Shown here piece by piece: positions 1,059 through 13,078 of a DNA stretch of 37,971 nucleotides; position 1 is the first letter of the stretch; each line of letters opens with the position of its first letter. The notes under the pieces were generated by a model. It saw only the letters and a list, made by a program, of their open reading frames with translations, had not been told where the DNA came from and ran no database searches. Location of the stretch: assembly GCA_029003555.1 (NCBI GenBank), contig JAQYCE010000076.1, positions 1 to 37,971 of the forward strand. The letters run 5' to 3'. Position numbers and translations under genes: made by a program. The stretch is from Bacillota bacterium (GTDB lineage: Bacteria; Bacillota; Clostridia; Tissierellales; Peptoniphilaceae).

Positions 1059-2069
1059 TTACTTAGAAAGTTTGGTGATGTATTCCAGGGTCCGGACCAG
1101 CTGGCAGGTATATCCGTACTCATTATCATACCAGGCAACGGTCTTGACAAGCTGGTTGTCTCCGGTTTCAACGACCTTAGTTAAGGTAGAGTCGAAGATG
1201 GAGCCGGCTGTTGTCCCGATCACATCGGAAGAAACAATTTCGTCTTCGTTGTAAGCAAAGGAGGGGTTAGCGGCCTTCTTCATGGCGGCGTTGACCTCTT
1301 CCGCCGTCACCTTCTTTTCAAGAACGGTGTAGAGCTCGGTGATGGAGCCGGTGGCAACAGGAACGCGGAGGGCGGTACCGTCGATGATCCCTTCGACTTC
1401 GGGAATAACTTTTCCGACTGCCTTAGCAGCACCGGTGGTGGTAGGAACGATGTTCTGGGCACCGGCACGGCCTCTGCGGAAGTTGTTGGCTTTGTTGGGG
1501 GAGTCCTGGATGGCCTGGTTTCCGGTGTAACCGTGGATGGTGGACATCTGGGCAACCTTGATACCGAAGTTTTCCTTCAGAACCTTGACCATGGGAGAGA
1601 GGCAGTTGGTGGTGCAGGAAGCACCGGAGACGATGACATCATCGGCATTGATAACATCTTCATTGACACCGTAGACGATCATCTTTACACCGTCACCCTT
1701 AACAGGGGCAGAGATCAGGACCTTCTTGGCCCCGGCATCGATATGGGCCTGGGCTTTTTCTTTGGACGTATAGAAACCGGTGCACTCCAGAACCACATCG
1801 ACATCTAAATCCTTCCAAGGAAGCTTGGAGGCATCCGGCTCAGCAAAGACTTTGATGTGGTCGCCATTGACCTCGAAGCCTTCTTCTGTCTCTTTAATCT
1901 CCCCATCAAAGGTTCCTTGCATGGTGTCATACTTAAAGAGGTAGGTTAAAAACTTCTTGTCCACCAGGTCGTTGATGGCGACGACATCAATATCGTTGAG
2001 GGTCTGAATACGACGAAGAGCCAGACGCCCGATACGTCCAAAACCGTTAATTGCTACTTTTGTTGCCAT
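1059..2069 (-). CDS. gap: Glyceraldehyde-3-phosphate dehydrogenase, type I
   Basis: [21 protein letters not shown]..., active-site [36 protein letters not shown] at 2069 preceded by AGGAGG; the longer ORF start at 2126 is not supported. Confidence 0.97.
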
Positions 2070-2128
2070 AAGTAAACCTCCTAAATGTTCTTGTTTTCCA
2101 TACCATTCATTTTTTACATTCATCATTT

Positions 2129-2134
2129 ATTATA
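2129..2134 (-). promoter_or_regulatory. Candidate -10 box (TATAAT) for gap
   Basis: Minus strand gggTATAATaaatg about 60 nt upstream of the gap ATG. No good -35 match; it would overlap the upstream terminator T-tract. Confidence 0.4.
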
Positions 2135-2149
2135 CCCAAAGTGGGAAAT

Positions 2150-2187
2150 AAAAACGACCAAGCCAATAAAAGCTTGGTCGTTTTTTA
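2150..2187 (-). terminator. Intrinsic terminator downstream of the prsA-like gene
   Basis: AAAACGACCAAGC-caataaaa-GCTTGGTCGTTTTTT: near-perfect inverted repeat with T-tracts on both strands. Confidence 0.85.
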
Positions 2188-2247
2188 TCATTTTCTTCCT
2201 ATAAAGCCGGAATGGAAAATAGCTTTTCCGAAGATCCTTCTTCCTGC

Positions 2248-3222
2248 TTACTTGGATTCTTCAGCGGAAGAAGATTGGCTCTCCTGGCCGGGTTCTTCCT
2301 TGGATTCACCGGACTCTGCCTCGGATTGGTCGGAAGCCTGACTGGATTCCTCTTCCTTCTTCTCACCGGGGAATTCCACCTTGGCTTCGTCAACCAGCTT
2401 CTGGAGGTATTCCTGGTAGGCATCAGCCGTCAGGGCCGTCAGAATCTCATCCTTTACAGAATCGGCGGTATTATAGTTTTTGTTGAGGCGGATGATATGG
2501 TAACCAAACTGGGTTTGTACCGGATCGGAAATCTCCCCCTCCTTCAAAGCTAAAAGAGCCTTGGCAAAGACCGGGTCATACTTGCCGGGGTTCTGGATGC
2601 CTAAGCTTCCCCCTGCCTGAGCAGATCCGTCTTTTGAAACCGCCTTGGCCACATCTTCAAAGGATTCACCACCGTCGATCCTCTTCTTGGCTTCCTTGGC
2701 TTCTTCTTCCGTGGGAACCAGGATATGGGAGGCGTCCACCTTCACCAGACTGTCCTTGTTGTCTTCGAAATACTTCTTGATTTCTTCTTCAGAAGGCGCA
2801 TTCTTTTGGGCATACATCTCCTTGTGCTTACGGGAGATGGTCTCAAACTTGAGCATCTCCTTCATCTGGTCGTCAGAGATCTTCAGTACTTCCAAAGTTC
2901 TCCGGTAGCCTTCTGCCCCGCCATAAGCCTCAACAGCCTTATCGAAGTCTTCCTTGTAGTCTTCATCCGTCAGTTTGACCTCGTTTTTCTCCAGGTCCTG
3001 GCGCATGACGACTTCCTGGACCAGCTGTTTTTTAATCGATTCGGGAAGTTGGTATTGAGCAGCAATCATGGACTTGATAACATCCAACTGGACATCATAG
3101 CGTTCCTGGGCGATCTTCTCCCCATTAACGGTGGCGAAGGTGCTTCCCCCGGCACCGCATCCGGTTAAGAGTAGGGAGAGGGCCAAACCTCCCGCTAGGA
3201 TTTTCTTCACTTGCTTTTTCAT
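2248..3222 (-). CDS. PrsA/SurA-like peptidylprolyl isomerase lipoprotein (parvulin domain)
   Basis: Lipoprotein signal MKKQVKKILAGGLALSLLLTGCGAGG; parvulin-type DASHILVPTEEEAKEA...GGSLGIQNPGKYDPVFAKALLALKEGEISDPVQTQFGYHIIRL; Ser/Glu-rich tail. Confidence 0.9.
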   Translation of the reverse strand: MKKQVKKILAGGLALSLLLTGCGAGGSTFATVNGEKIAQERYDVQLDVIKSMIAAQYQLPESIKKQLVQEVVMRQDLEKNEVKLTDEDYKEDFDKAVEAYGGAEGYRRTLEVLKISDDQMKEMLKFETISRKHKEMYAQKNAPSEEEIKKYFEDNKDSLVKVDASHILVPTEEEAKEAKKRIDGGESFEDVAKAVSKDGSAQAGGSLGIQNPGKYDPVFAKALLALKEGEISDPVQTQFGYHIIRLNKNYNTADSVKDEILTALTADAYQEYLQKLVDEAKVEFPGEKKEEESSQASDQSEAESGESKEEPGQESQSSSAEESK

Positions 3223-6760: not shown

Positions 6761-7450
6761 TTATTTCTCTCCACACCGCTTGGCCTCTTTGATAAAGGCC
6801 TCCTGGTTTCTACGAGCTTCTTCTTGGCGGTCTTTTTCCTTCTCTTCCTCATTTGTTGGCTTGGGAAGGCGGTCGGAGACCCAACCGTTGACCTGGTTCA
6901 TGGCGGCTTCCACCCCCTGGTCAAGGATGGTTTCAATGGCCCGGCAGGCCATATCGACCTCATCCTCCACCACCTTCTCCTCCTCCGGCGTGAAAGTGGA
7001 AAGGACAAAGTCAGCCAGGTCCTGGCTGGCCATCCTCCGACCCACAGCCAGGCGGATTCGGGGGAAGTCCGTTGTAGAAAGGGAGGAGACGATGGACTTC
7101 ATCCCATTGTGGGACCCGGCAGACCCATGGCCCTTGACCCGGATGGTGCCCAGTTCAATATCGATATCGTCATAGACGACAATCAGGTGACCGGGATCCA
7201 GCTTATAAAAGTTTTGAATGGCCTGGACCGCTTGACCCGACAGGTTCATATAGGTCTGGGGCTTGACCAGGAGGACCTTTTGGCCCTCCCGTTGTCCCTG
7301 TCCAACCAGGGCCTTCCACTTGACCTGATTAACGGAGATCGACCAGTCCCTAGCCAGGCGGTCAACCACCCGGAAGCCCATATTGTGGCGGGTCTTTTCA
7401 TAGTGGTTCCCGGGATTTCCCAGGCCGACAATGACATAAAGTTCGCTCAT
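6761..7450 (-). CDS. pth: Peptidyl-tRNA hydrolase
   Basis: [33 protein letters not shown]...LLVKPQTYMNLSGQAVQ...VVYDDIDIELGTIRVKGHGSAGSHNGMKSI. Canonical Pth motifs; position between prs and mfd is conserved in Firmicutes. Confidence 0.97.
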   Translation of the reverse strand: MSELYVIVGLGNPGNHYEKTRHNMGFRVVDRLARDWSISVNQVKWKALVGQGQREGQKVLLVKPQTYMNLSGQAVQAIQNFYKLDPGHLIVVYDDIDIELGTIRVKGHGSAGSHNGMKSIVSSLSTTDFPRIRLAVGRRMASQDLADFVLSTFTPEEEKVVEDEVDMACRAIETILDQGVEAAMNQVNGWVSDRLPKPTNEEEKEKDRQEEARRNQEAFIKEAKRCGEK

Positions 7451-8400
7451 TAGAACAGCTCACTTACCGATTCGTAATTGTAGATCCGGCGGATGGCTTC
7501 GGCCAGTTGAGGGCCGATGGAAACCACTTCAATTTTGGAGCATTCCTTGCTCTCCGGCAGGTGGACGGAGTTGGTCACCACGCACTTCTTCACTGCAGAA
7601 GCTTCAATCCGGTCAACAGCGGGGCCGGAGAGGAGGGCATGGGAAGCGGTAATATAAACGTCTTTTGCCCCTGCTTCTTCAGCCAGGAAGTTGGCCGCAT
7701 TGGTAATGGTTCCGGCCGTGTCAATAATGTCATCAATGATGATGCAGTTCTTTCCCTGAACATCGCCAATGATGTTTTCCACGACGGACTCATTGGGCCG
7801 GGGACGGGTTTTTTCAATGATGGCGATGGGGAGGTCCAGGTCATGGGAGAACTTCCGGGCCCGGGTAACCCCGCCCAAGTCAGGAGAAACAACCACCCAA
7901 TCTTCGGGAGCTTCATCAACAAGGGGCTTGAAGTAACGGGCCAGGAGGTGGCCTGCGGCTAAGTGGTCCAGGGGAATATCGAAGTAACCCTGGATCTGGC
8001 CGGCATGAAGGTCAATCGTGATTACCCGGTCCACACCGGCGGATTCCAGAAGATCGGCCACCAATTTTGCCGTAATGGGCTCCCGGCCGGCTGTCTTCCG
8101 GTCCTGGCGGGCATATCCATAGTAGGGCATCACGACATTGATCCGGTTGGCTGAAGCCCTCTTCAGGGCATCGCAGATGATGAGGACTTCCATCAAGTGC
8201 TCATTGACCGGATAGGAAGTGGGCTGGATCAAAAAGACATCGTACCCACGAACCGTTTCATTGATTTTGACCTGAATTTCACCATCCGCAAAGTGGTTGA
8301 GCTCCATATCTCCTAAACGCTTCTTTAGAATGGAGCAAATTTCCTCCGCCAACTTTCGGTTCGAAGATCCGGAAAAGATCTTCATTCCACGTGCATCCAT
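7450..8400 (-). CDS. prs: Ribose-phosphate pyrophosphokinase
   Basis: [41 protein letters not shown]...[30 protein letters not shown]...[18 protein letters not shown] at 8400 with GGAGGAAGC upstream. Confidence 0.97.
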
Positions 8401-8437
8401 GCTTCCTCCTAACGTTATGAGCGACAAATCCTTATCT

Positions 8438-8503: not shown

Positions 8504-9628
8504 TTAAAGCGTCCCTTTTGCCTTCCTCCTGGCCACATAGCCGGGAATCTTTTTTACCTCTGCCCTTTCAACAACCAGGGCCCCCTCCTCAACCTTTGAG
8601 CTGATGGTGGATCCGGCCGCAATAAAGCCTTCTTTTTCCACCTCGACCGGGGCAACCAGGTTAGCATTGGACCCAATAAAGGCACCATCACCCACAATGG
8701 CCTGGTGTTTGTTTTTTCCATCATAATTGCAGAAGATGACCCCGCAGGAGATGTTGACCTCCTCCCCTACCTGGGCATCCCCAATGTAGGCCAGGTGGCC
8801 GGCCTTGGTTCCCCGGCCCAGGCTGGCCTTTTTCACCTCGACAAAATTTCCAATATGGACATTTTCCCCGATATGGGCTTGGGGGCGGAGGTGGGAGAAG
8901 GGGCCGATATTGGATCCCTCTTCCATAACGGAAGATTCGATGACCGAGGATTTGATGACCACATGATTTCCGATCCTTGAGTTATCGATGTCGCTGCCAT
9001 CGGTAATCCGGCAATTTTCCCCGATGATCGTCTTCCCGGTGATCCGAACGGCCCCTTGAATCCAGGTCCCTTTCCCGATTTTTGCATCCGGATCAATCAC
9101 CGTGTCGAAGGGGCGGTCAATCCGAACTCCGGCCTTCATGAATCGGTAGTTAATCGCTCCATGGATGGCATGGGCAGCAATGGGCAGGCTGGCAAAATCG
9201 GTAATATGGGGAAGGCCCAGGTCATAACCGGAGAATTCGCCATCCTTGTGATCAAGATCAAGCAAGGGAACCAGGTCTTCAAAGACAGGGTTTTGGCCCT
9301 TCAGTTGGGCAAGGAGGTCGCCATTATCTTCCTCTTTCACCCATCGATAGGCTAGAATATCCTCCTCATCGGAGAGAAAGACCGTGCTCCCGGAGTCGAG
9401 AAACTCGCGGACCGCCTCCCCCAGCGGGAGGGGAAAGCCGACAGAGATAAAAAACACTTCCTTTTCATCCACCGACAAGTCCGATAGAGGAGTGGGGTCC
9501 AGGCCCCCTTCCCGACAGGCGGTTTCCACTAATTCTCTCAGAGGATGATTCATTAGAGAAAGAAGGTCCTCTCCCCCCTCCTCCTTCAGGCCTTTGGTAA
9601 ATATATTGTCCAAAATAACAGCTTTCAT
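8504..9628 (-). CDS. glmU: GlmU-like protein: intact left-handed beta-helix glucosamine-1-phosphate acetyltransferase domain with shortened, divergent N-terminal (former uridylyltransferase) domain
   Basis: C-terminal half has GlmU acetyltransferase signatures (GPFSHLRPQAHIGENVHIGNFVEVKKASLGRGTKAGHLAYIGDAQVGEEVNISCGVIFCNYDGKNKH...IGSNANLVAPV...IAAGSTI...VERAEV). The N-terminus MKAVILDNIFTKGLKEEGGEDLLSLMNHPLRELVE lacks the LAAGxGTRM nucleotide-binding motif. Locus order glmU-prs-pth-mfd is conserved in Firmicutes. ATG at 9628 has GGGAGG 6 nt upstream. Confidence 0.88.
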   Translation of the reverse strand: MKAVILDNIFTKGLKEEGGEDLLSLMNHPLRELVETACREGGLDPTPLSDLSVDEKEVFFISVGFPLPLGEAVREFLDSGSTVFLSDEEDILAYRWVKEEDNGDLLAQLKGQNPVFEDLVPLLDLDHKDGEFSGYDLGLPHITDFASLPIAAHAIHGAINYRFMKAGVRIDRPFDTVIDPDAKIGKGTWIQGAVRITGKTIIGENCRITDGSDIDNSRIGNHVVIKSSVIESSVMEEGSNIGPFSHLRPQAHIGENVHIGNFVEVKKASLGRGTKAGHLAYIGDAQVGEEVNISCGVIFCNYDGKNKHQAIVGDGAFIGSNANLVAPVEVEKEGFIAAGSTISSKVEEGALVVERAEVKKIPGYVARRKAKGTL

Positions 9629-9802: not shown

Positions 9803-11203
9803 ATGTTCACGATTGATCTGGACCCCAAAAGGTCCCAAATAAAGAGTATACACTTTATCGGCATCGGAGGCACCTCCATGTCCGGAATTGCCGAACTTTT
9901 ATTCGATAAAGGGTTCACCGTTACCGGGTCTGACCGGGAGGAAGGATCCTACACCCAACACTTAATAAATAAGGGAATCCCCATCGTCTTTGGGCAGAAG
10001 GCCGAAAATATCAAAGACCAGGACCTCTTTGTCTATACCGATGCCATCCCGGAAACCAACCCCGAGCTTATGGCTGCCCGGGCAACCGGCCGACCTGTTG
10101 TTTCCCGAGGTCGGGTCCTGGGAGCCATCATGAGAAATTACACCCACTCCATCGCCATCTCCGGGGCCCATGGGAAGTCCACCACCACCTCTATGATGGC
10201 GGAAATCCTCATGGCAGCGGAGGACCGGGACCCCACCATCCTGATTGGCGGAGCCTTGGATGAGATGGGCGGTAACTGCCGGACCGGAGATGGCAATATC
10301 TTCCTGGCCGAGGGCTGCGAATATAAGGGTAATATTTTATTCTATTATCCCTCCATCGCCGTCATCCTCAACATCGATGTCGACCACCTGGATTACTTTA
10401 AGGATTTAGACGATATCATCCACACCTTTGAGCGTTATATGGAAAACATCCCCCAGGACGGCCTGGCCATCCTCAACCTGGATGATCCCTATTCCCGGAC
10501 CCTAAAGGACTTCGTCAAGGGTCGGGTGGCCTTCTTCTCCATGACCAATCCGGAAGCCGACGTCCATGTGGAAAACATCGTCTATAGCGATCTGGGCCAG
10601 CCCTCCTTCAGCCTGGTTTTCAAGGACGGGACTCGTTTGGATATCCAATTGGGTGTCCTCGGTGACTTTAATATTCGTCATGCCATGGCGGCCAGCTTGG
10701 CTGCCCGGGAAGCCGGCCTTTCCCTGGACATCATTAAGAAGGGTTTGGAAGCCTACCGGTCCCTCCACCGCCGGATGGAGAATATGGGCACCTTCCACGG
10801 TGCCCGGGTCTTGACTGACTATGGCCACCACCCGGCGGAAATCCAAGCCACCCTGGAAACCATCCACCCCCATGTCAAGGGTCGCTTCTACTGTGTCTTT
10901 GAACCCCATACCTATTCCCGAACCCGGACCCTGATGGCCGACTTTGCCAAGACCTTCGGGGACTGCGATGAGGCAGTCATCACCAAAATATATGGAGCCC
11001 GGGAAGAAGACGACGGGTCTGTCCGGTCGGAGGAGTTGGTGGAGAAGGTCCAGGCTCACGGCGACCGGGCGGTCTACCAGGAGACCTACCAAGATGTGGT
11101 GGACTACCTAAAAAATAAGGTGACTCCCGATGACCTGATCCTGACCACCGGCTGCGGAAAGGCCGATGAAATCGCCAAGCTCCTGGTTGCTCAAGGAAAA
11201 TAA
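9803..11203 (+). CDS. murC: UDP-N-acetylmuramate--L-alanine ligase
   Basis: IKSIHFIGIGGTSMSGIAELLFDKGFTVTGSD..., AISGAHGKSTTTSMMAEIL, EGCEYKGNILFYYPSIAVILNIDVDHLDYF, DYGHHPAEIQATLETI. ATG at 9803 after GAAGGAGGAAAC. Confidence 0.97.
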   Translation: MFTIDLDPKRSQIKSIHFIGIGGTSMSGIAELLFDKGFTVTGSDREEGSYTQHLINKGIPIVFGQKAENIKDQDLFVYTDAIPETNPELMAARATGRPVVSRGRVLGAIMRNYTHSIAISGAHGKSTTTSMMAEILMAAEDRDPTILIGGALDEMGGNCRTGDGNIFLAEGCEYKGNILFYYPSIAVILNIDVDHLDYFKDLDDIIHTFERYMENIPQDGLAILNLDDPYSRTLKDFVKGRVAFFSMTNPEADVHVENIVYSDLGQPSFSLVFKDGTRLDIQLGVLGDFNIRHAMAASLAAREAGLSLDIIKKGLEAYRSLHRRMENMGTFHGARVLTDYGHHPAEIQATLETIHPHVKGRFYCVFEPHTYSRTRTLMADFAKTFGDCDEAVITKIYGAREEDDGSVRSEELVEKVQAHGDRAVYQETYQDVVDYLKNKVTPDDLILTTGCGKADEIAKLLVAQGK

Positions 11204-11273: not shown

Positions 11274-12371
11274 TTGGGAAATTTCCTCCCTTAGGGACAT
11301 GATTTCGTTGAAGAACTCATCCGAAAGGTCATCATAGGATAGGAGTTCATTGATATCCTCCATGGCCTTGTCTTTTTTTCCGGCAAGGAAAAGGAGGATA
11401 GCCCGGTTATAGCGGAGGCGGAGGGCGGAAGGATAGTGGTCCAAACCCTTATTTGCCGCAGCCAGAGCCTGGTCCCTCTTCCCCCAGGCAGTCAAGGCAT
11501 AGACCCAACCATTATAGAGGTCTTCGAAGTCTCCACCCCGGTCCAGGGCCTCCTGGAAGGCACCGGCCGCCAGGTCATAGGCGGACATATTTTGATAGGA
11601 GAGACCCAGATAATAGAAAACATCGTAGCGTCTGGTTTTTTTGCCCAGCTTGCTGAGGATGTCCACCGCCTGGCCGTAATCGGCCCGACGCATGAAATAG
11701 AGGGCGGATTCAATCTCCGTCTCCGGTTCGATCCTCTCCAAGGCCCGGCGAACTTCTTCCTTGACCTCGGGATCCTCCGCCCACTCCAAGGCTCGCTGAT
11801 AATAGGCTGTTGCCTTGGAAAAATGACCCATCCCCTCATTAATTTGTCCTAAGGCGGTGTTGGCCAGGGGAGAACGGTCGTCCCAATCCAAGGCCCTTTC
11901 CAATATGTGGGAAGCTTGGTGGACCATGTCCGCCTGGTCCTCTTCGCTCAAAGAGGGGATCCGCCAAAGGAGGTCTCCGAAGTGGACCTGGGCGTTTATA
12001 TTGTCCGGGTTGATGATCCCGGCGGCTCGAAAGGCAATCAGGGCCTCCCGAGTTTTCCCCTCACTCGCTGCCTTCAGGCCCATATTCAGGGCAAAACGGT
12101 CCGCTTCTTTGACCGTTCTTTTCAAAAGATCCAAATAATCCTTGGCATGGATAAAGTCAGGATCGATCCCCAGGTTCCAAATCATTCCCTTCACAAAATA
12201 GGAATAGTCAATCTCCCGGTCCAGTTGTCCTTCTTGGATTCCTCCCAGAAAGTCTTGAACCCGGATGGGCATAGGAAGGGGACCAATCCCCCACTTCTTT
12301 TGGGCTTCTTCCTTCAAGTCCAGGTAGGCCAGGTCCTTGGTAAATTGGATGAAATAATCCTCAAGTCTCAA
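11271..12371 (-). CDS. Tetratricopeptide-repeat protein
   Basis: Repeated TPR-like helices (SPLANTALGQINEGMGHFSKATAYYQRALEWAED; YDVFYYLGLSYQNMSAYDLAAGAFQEALDRGG; DQALAAANKGLDHYPSALRLRYNRAILLFLAGK). Confidence 0.8.
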   Translation of the reverse strand: MRLEDYFIQFTKDLAYLDLKEEAQKKWGIGPLPMPIRVQDFLGGIQEGQLDREIDYSYFVKGMIWNLGIDPDFIHAKDYLDLLKRTVKEADRFALNMGLKAASEGKTREALIAFRAAGIINPDNINAQVHFGDLLWRIPSLSEEDQADMVHQASHILERALDWDDRSPLANTALGQINEGMGHFSKATAYYQRALEWAEDPEVKEEVRRALERIEPETEIESALYFMRRADYGQAVDILSKLGKKTRRYDVFYYLGLSYQNMSAYDLAAGAFQEALDRGGDFEDLYNGWVYALTAWGKRDQALAAANKGLDHYPSALRLRYNRAILLFLAGKKDKAMEDINELLSYDDLSDEFFNEIMSLREEISQ

Positions 12372-13078
12372 GACCGGCTCCTTTCATGGTAGGCCCGGGA
12401 CCTCTTGGAGGTCTCGGATAGGATCCGATAAAGGAGCCCCTTGGTATAGAAGTAGATGGCCTTAAGGATGGCCAATCCCAGGATGTAGGGGAAGGATGCC
12501 GTCCCCGGAATCGAAGCCAGGATGGACCAAGCCATTCCCAGTCCCCGGTAGATGAGAATAGCCACCAAGGCATAGGGAAGGATGAGAAGGAAATTCTCCT
12601 TCCAAAAACTCAGGAGGGAGGGGAAGATGGTGTTCATGGTTTCCCCGGACTGGTAAACCCCTTCGTAGGCCGGGCTGGTAAAGACCGACCAGACCAGGAA
12701 AAGAACAAGATAGCCGGTCGAGGCCATGAGGGGACGACCCAGGCTGGTGGCTGCCATTTCCACCAGGTAAAAGACGAAGTAGACCTGGCTTAAGGGGGCA
12801 AGGTAGCCGTGGTCGTATTCGATTAAATCCTCCTGGCTCAAGCTCCCCCGGCGGAGAAGGCGGGTCATGAGGCCGGCCAGGTGGGTCAGGATGGCCAGGT
12901 GGATGAACCAGCGGATAAATCCACTCAGGAAGGAATTGCCCATCTGTGCAAAGATCATGTTGACCAGGTTGGTCACCGTCAAATATAAAATAAAGGCTAA
13001 AATCAGGACCGGCAGGCCTCTGATGTGGTCTTTAATATCCTTAAACAATCTTCGATAAACCAGTTGAAAATCTTTCAT
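12368..13078 (-). CDS. Multi-pass membrane protein of unknown function
   Basis: Several hydrophobic segments (LPVLILAFILYLTVTNLVNMIF; WFIHLAILTHLAGLM; TGYLVLFLVWSVFT; LLILPYALVAILIY). Stop overlaps the start of the TPR gene. Confidence 0.7.
   Translation of the reverse strand: MKDFQLVYRRLFKDIKDHIRGLPVLILAFILYLTVTNLVNMIFAQMGNSFLSGFIRWFIHLAILTHLAGLMTRLLRRGSLSQEDLIEYDHGYLAPLSQVYFVFYLVEMAATSLGRPLMASTGYLVLFLVWSVFTSPAYEGVYQSGETMNTIFPSLLSFWKENFLLILPYALVAILIYRGLGMAWSILASIPGTASFPYILGLAILKAIYFYTKGLLYRILSETSKRSRAYHERSRS

Follow-up and report, generated by a model that had tools for sequence, protein, structure and literature searches.

The window, a stretch of 37,971 nt (GenBank assembly GCA_029003555.1, contig JAQYCE010000076.1), belongs to a metagenome-assembled genome (MAG; 81% complete, here G000) close to Kallipyga massiliensis (94% protein identity). 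It carries a glmU-derived gene of 374 codons that lies between prs and a divergent murC (Table 1). The gene starts at an ATG preceded by GGGGAGG and has only ~130 nt upstream, so no missing 5' part exists. The gene order glmU-prs-pth-mfd is conserved; the same order is found in G013, another genome of the Peptoniphilaceae. Three Mur ligase domains in MurC show that the cell makes peptidoglycan and so needs UDP-GlcNAc.

Table 1. Coordinates of the features discussed in the text (window, and loci of other genomes designated by L numbers)
Sequence	Position	Strand	Feature	Remarks
Window	7450..8427	-	prs (ribose-phosphate pyrophosphokinase)	next gene in the conserved order; named from its sequence
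Window	8504..9628	-	glmU-derived gene, 374 aa	remnant uridylyltransferase domain, linker helix and complete acetyltransferase beta-helix; ATG at 9628
Window	9197..9628	-	eroded N-terminal domain, residues 1-144	predicted shortened beta-alpha-beta fold
Window	8507..9196	-	linker helix and left-handed beta-helix glucosamine-1-phosphate acetyltransferase domain, residues ~145-374	R248, E264, K266, H278, Y281, N292, N301, Y302, K307, S320, A338, R355 kept
Window	9803..11203	+	murC (UDP-N-acetylmuramate-alanine ligase)	divergent neighbour; GGAGG-ATG at 9803
Window	12368-13078	-	236-aa predicted membrane protein	no Pfam match; between mutS2 and a TPR protein
L123 (genome G096)	1398-2809		glmU in two adjacent frames	intact motifs in both halves
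L199	2782-4504		acetyltransferase-only glmU and GalU-like gene	directly following or overlapping
L206	2653-4366		acetyltransferase-only glmU and GalU-like gene	directly following or overlapping
L238 (genome G177, contig C14)	1333-3321		two 3pnn-type nucleotidyltransferases	one 663-aa frame

GlmU of the window keeps the acetyltransferase but not the uridylyltransferase motifs

Residues 151-369 match positions 232-451 of the TIGR01173 glmU model (E=8e-78), yet the score, 262.3 bits, lies below the curated cut-off of 366.85 bits because the first half of the model is unmatched. Pfam finds hexapeptide repeats only, and no nucleotidyltransferase family is detected in residues 1-140. All 12 likely active-site positions of the acetyltransferase, placed by alignment to Streptococcus pneumoniae GlmU, are kept. 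The N-terminal part comprises about 145 aa, against 231-234 aa in four intact relatives measured, and lacks the GxGTRM loop, the GTG.A loop and GDxPL, the last being replaced by GFPLPL. The protein thus differs from bifunctional GlmU (e.g., S. pneumoniae 1hm9 and E. coli 1hv9) in the length and motifs of its N-terminal domain, but shares the gene order, the acetyltransferase domain and a remnant of the N-terminal domain in the same place.

To establish the origin of the short N-terminal part, we aligned a profile of remnants from the clade that includes the window (clade A, below) to intact uridylyltransferase domains using hhalign. The alignment runs end to end (E=2.8e-8; 4.1e-6 when the shared linker is cut off), supporting the by-eye alignment of an earlier note on this sequence. 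Together with synteny and with a tree of the acetyltransferase domain, which nests the protein among intact GlmUs, this indicates descent from bifunctional GlmU. The AlphaFold2 model of the remnant is moderately confident over residues 1-120 (pLDDT mostly 70-90; most 10-residue means 74-90), whereas the last ~22 residues of the modelled stretch are disordered. A fold search with the whole-protein model finds GlmU structures at E ~ 4e-4 but with poor superposition (TM ~0.3, rmsd ~15 Å). With the N-domain alone the best match is a PIP synthase at TM 0.43, followed by MobA, KdsB, IspD and archaeal sugar nucleotidyltransferases at E ~ 0.01; this agrees with a reduced nucleotidyltransferase fold but is weak. 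A sequence search of the remnant profile against the PDB gave only chance matches.

The remnant is under purifying selection, with dN/dS of 0.06-0.24 in clade A (0.16-0.19 within the genus) against 0.04-0.12 for the acetyltransferase part, and 0.43 against 0.18 for the pair G127/G128. It therefore probably still has a structural use, and a structural role, which the earlier note raised as an alternative, is not excluded. Selection and a predicted folded core could also be taken to mean that the shortened domain still carries out uridylyl transfer by a changed active site. We consider this very unlikely: the P-loop, metal-binding and GTG motifs are gone in all 14 eroded proteins described below, the remnants share almost no invariant residues (2 invariant columns among 10 sequences), the dN/dS of the remnant is about 1.5-4 times that of the acetyltransferase in most pairs, and the erosion occurs only in lineages with a second nucleotidyltransferase.

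Erosion of GlmU is recurrent in the Peptoniphilaceae

Since the window derives from a MAG, and since a truly split glmU does occur in G096, we asked whether the short form could be a sequencing, assembly or binning artefact. Orthologues of the same length are present in the two isolate genomes of the genus, K. massiliensis and K. gabonensis (94% and 72% identity), and in isolate genomes of at least four named genera in total, some of them single-contig; Murdochiella, Levyella, Khoudiadiopia and other Peptoniphilaceae share the form. These isolate genomes, the ribosome-binding site of the ORF and a dN/dS well below 1 exclude an artefact.

We next collected GlmU from 129 of 131 genomes of the family and scored the motifs. 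Fourteen are eroded: three of Kallipyga, five of the Murdochiella/Levyella group, G015, G036 (Khoudiadiopia), G126, G013, G127 and G128. G126 has a long open frame (458 aa) and appears intact by length, but its sequence shows the erosion. The P-loop, GDxPL and GTG.A motifs are lost in 14/14 and kept in 114/115 others; the exception, G096, has a gene split by a frameshift or stop, either a sequencing error or a recent break, whose upstream piece keeps them. All 12 acetyltransferase positions are kept in 14/14 eroded proteins. In G069 (locus L118) a 791-aa frame runs from a full GlmU directly into Prs, and may be a glmU-prs fusion or a sequencing error. The acetyltransferase tree requires three separate erosions: clade A (11 genomes including that of the window, support 100/98), G013, and G127+G128, next to intact G129 of the same genus (100/97). 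The earlier note had not seen that the erosion is recurrent and widespread.

A 3pnn-family nucleotidyltransferase is a candidate for the missing step

Loss of uridylyltransferase with an intact acetyltransferase is well supported, and the earlier note had inferred that a separate uridylyltransferase would then be needed. The genome of the window has one GlmU and no AGX-type (PF01704) protein. Its PF00483/PF12804 proteins are GlgC, GlgD, GalU, IspD and a ~305-aa protein broken over two contig ends (contigs C25 and C46). The family of this last protein matches PDB 3pnn ('Conserved domain protein', no assigned function) in a full-length match over 299 residues (E=1.6e-78). A clade of this family, here type-1 (99/96 support), keeps the nucleotidyltransferase motifs AAGMGSRYG, PWGT.A and NADDYYG.

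In a survey of the 131 genomes, type-1 enzymes were found in all 14 eroded genomes and in only two others, G110 and G129, both of which keep an intact GlmU. Fisher's test gives p=6e-17 without correction for kinship; dealing three losses to 35 lineages of which 4 carry type-1 gives about 6e-4, a rough figure. A second subgroup, type-2, is present in most genomes of another genus (g24), which keep intact GlmU; at two g24 loci, L145 and L150, it sits between chromate-transporter-like and solute-binding-protein genes. In the eroded genomes G024, G122, G123 and G127 (99-100% complete; G127, 100%) the only PF00483 proteins are GlgC, GlgD and the type-1 enzyme. IspD is added in G024, one of the six eroded genomes (G000, G001, G002, G024, G015 and G036) in which PF12804 was searched. 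No PF01704 protein was found in any of the 14 eroded genomes, although this elimination does not extend to PF13562, PF07959, PF02348 and PF14134, which were not searched.

Gene neighbourhoods point to N-acetylhexosamine 1-phosphates. In G110, G013, G127, G128 and G129 the type-1 gene directly adjoins a kinase of the NahK family (PDB 4wh1, N-acetylhexosamine 1-kinase, E=4e-92 for the G013 protein; the others were recognised by their sequence), and in G013, G127 and G128 galE follows. NahK makes GlcNAc-1-P and GalNAc-1-P (PMC6264712), exactly what such an enzyme would uridylylate. NahK and galE also recall the lacto-N-biose/galacto-N-biose salvage pathway of bifidobacteria, but here a 3pnn-family protein sits beside NahK. 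In clade A, however, the type-1 gene lies beside ackA and an AI-2E-type transporter rather than NahK; in G024 glmS lies a few genes away.

An alternative is that UDP-GlcNAc is made by a GalU with relaxed specificity or by an unrecognised nucleotidyltransferase, and that the 3pnn-type enzyme serves galactose or hexose salvage only, as a GalT substitute. GalU is present in Kallipyga (G000-G002), G036 and G126 and could do the step, galE sits near some type-1 genes, and the PF00483 protein GalY of Akkermansia (Amuc_0031), which clusters with galE, was predicted by phyletic pattern as a non-orthologous GalT acting on Gal-1-P (PMC5583593). We regard this alternative as unlikely. G024, G122, G123 and G127 have no GalU by PF00483 search, so GalU cannot be the common substitute; NahK makes HexNAc-1-phosphates, not Gal-1-P; and only the type-1 enzyme is common to all eroded genomes.

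GlmU proteins lacking the domain occur in other Clostridia

A scan of named genomes found many uncultured Clostridia whose GlmU also lacks the domain. These include remnants that keep DTPL (loci L168, L173, L208), shorter remnants (L174, L184, L185, L190, L203) and acetyltransferase-only proteins of 209-282 aa (L181, L191, L192, L199, L202, L206, L210). In nine loci (L169, L170, L171, L172, L175, L176, L179, L188, L195; open frames of ~617-636 aa) the acetyltransferase is fused to the N-terminus of a complete GlmM (phosphoglucosamine mutase); profile searches of L169, L172 and L188 found TIGR01455 positions 1-441 and TIGR01173 263-445 in one protein. In L199 and L206 (frames of 273-282 aa) a GalU-like gene (TIGR01099, below cut-off) is a candidate second half of a split GlmU rebuilt from two genes; in L192 glmM follows directly.

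The 3pnn enzyme does not account for all these cases. Of 24 such genomes outside the Peptoniphilaceae, only G177 (a tandem double copy; its GlmU, L208, is also eroded) and G175 (a fragment) have it, and only G170 has a PF01704 protein. Other substitutes must therefore exist there, with the reservation that these MAGs are small and probably incomplete.

Discussion

Our data support a model in which the Kallipyga protein is a monofunctional glucosamine-1-phosphate N-acetyltransferase derived from bifunctional GlmU. Its uridylyltransferase domain has lost its catalytic loops by internal deletion and substitution and survives only as a shortened fold, kept by selection probably for stability or assembly of the trimer. 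GlcNAc-1-P would then be turned into UDP-GlcNAc by the type-1 enzyme, which is related to those in N-acetylhexosamine salvage clusters (NahK - nucleotidyltransferase - GalE). The likely history is that a salvage enzyme also covered the de novo step and made the GlmU uridylyltransferase redundant, after which the domain decayed independently in at least three lineages of the Peptoniphilaceae. We favour this model with fair confidence, but the enzyme activities, the substrate of the type-1 enzyme, the order of events and the role of the remnant are inferred from sequence, without biochemical tests.

The arrangement resembles the eukaryotic two-enzyme route (GNA1 + UAP1/AGX) in that acetylation and uridylylation would reside on separate proteins. 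The enzymes are unrelated; here the acetyltransferase is GlmU-derived and acts on GlcN-1-P. Searches of literature that does not cover most subscription journals revealed no earlier description of a monofunctional or GlmM-fused GlmU or of such a replacement, and no paper naming 3pnn with 'nucleotidyltransferase'.

A broader possibility, which we advance only tentatively, is that the domain is lost recurrently in Clostridia and the loss repaired each time by a different stand-alone nucleotidyltransferase, 3pnn-type in Peptoniphilaceae and GalU-like in some uncultured lineages, with intermediate remnants, acetyltransferase-only proteins and the acetyltransferase-GlmM fusion as successive stages. 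In Peptoniphilaceae the selected remnant would be a docking surface that holds the replacement enzyme or GlmM near the acetyltransferase.

UDP-GlcNAc synthesis by bifunctional GlmU is described as the standard bacterial route, and GlmU is a studied antibacterial target; inhibitors of its uridylyltransferase site would miss these organisms. The pattern gives a testable function to the 3pnn family. It also catches a non-orthologous replacement of an essential enzyme in mid-course: one genus (g60) holds both the intact and the decayed form, each with the candidate substitute.
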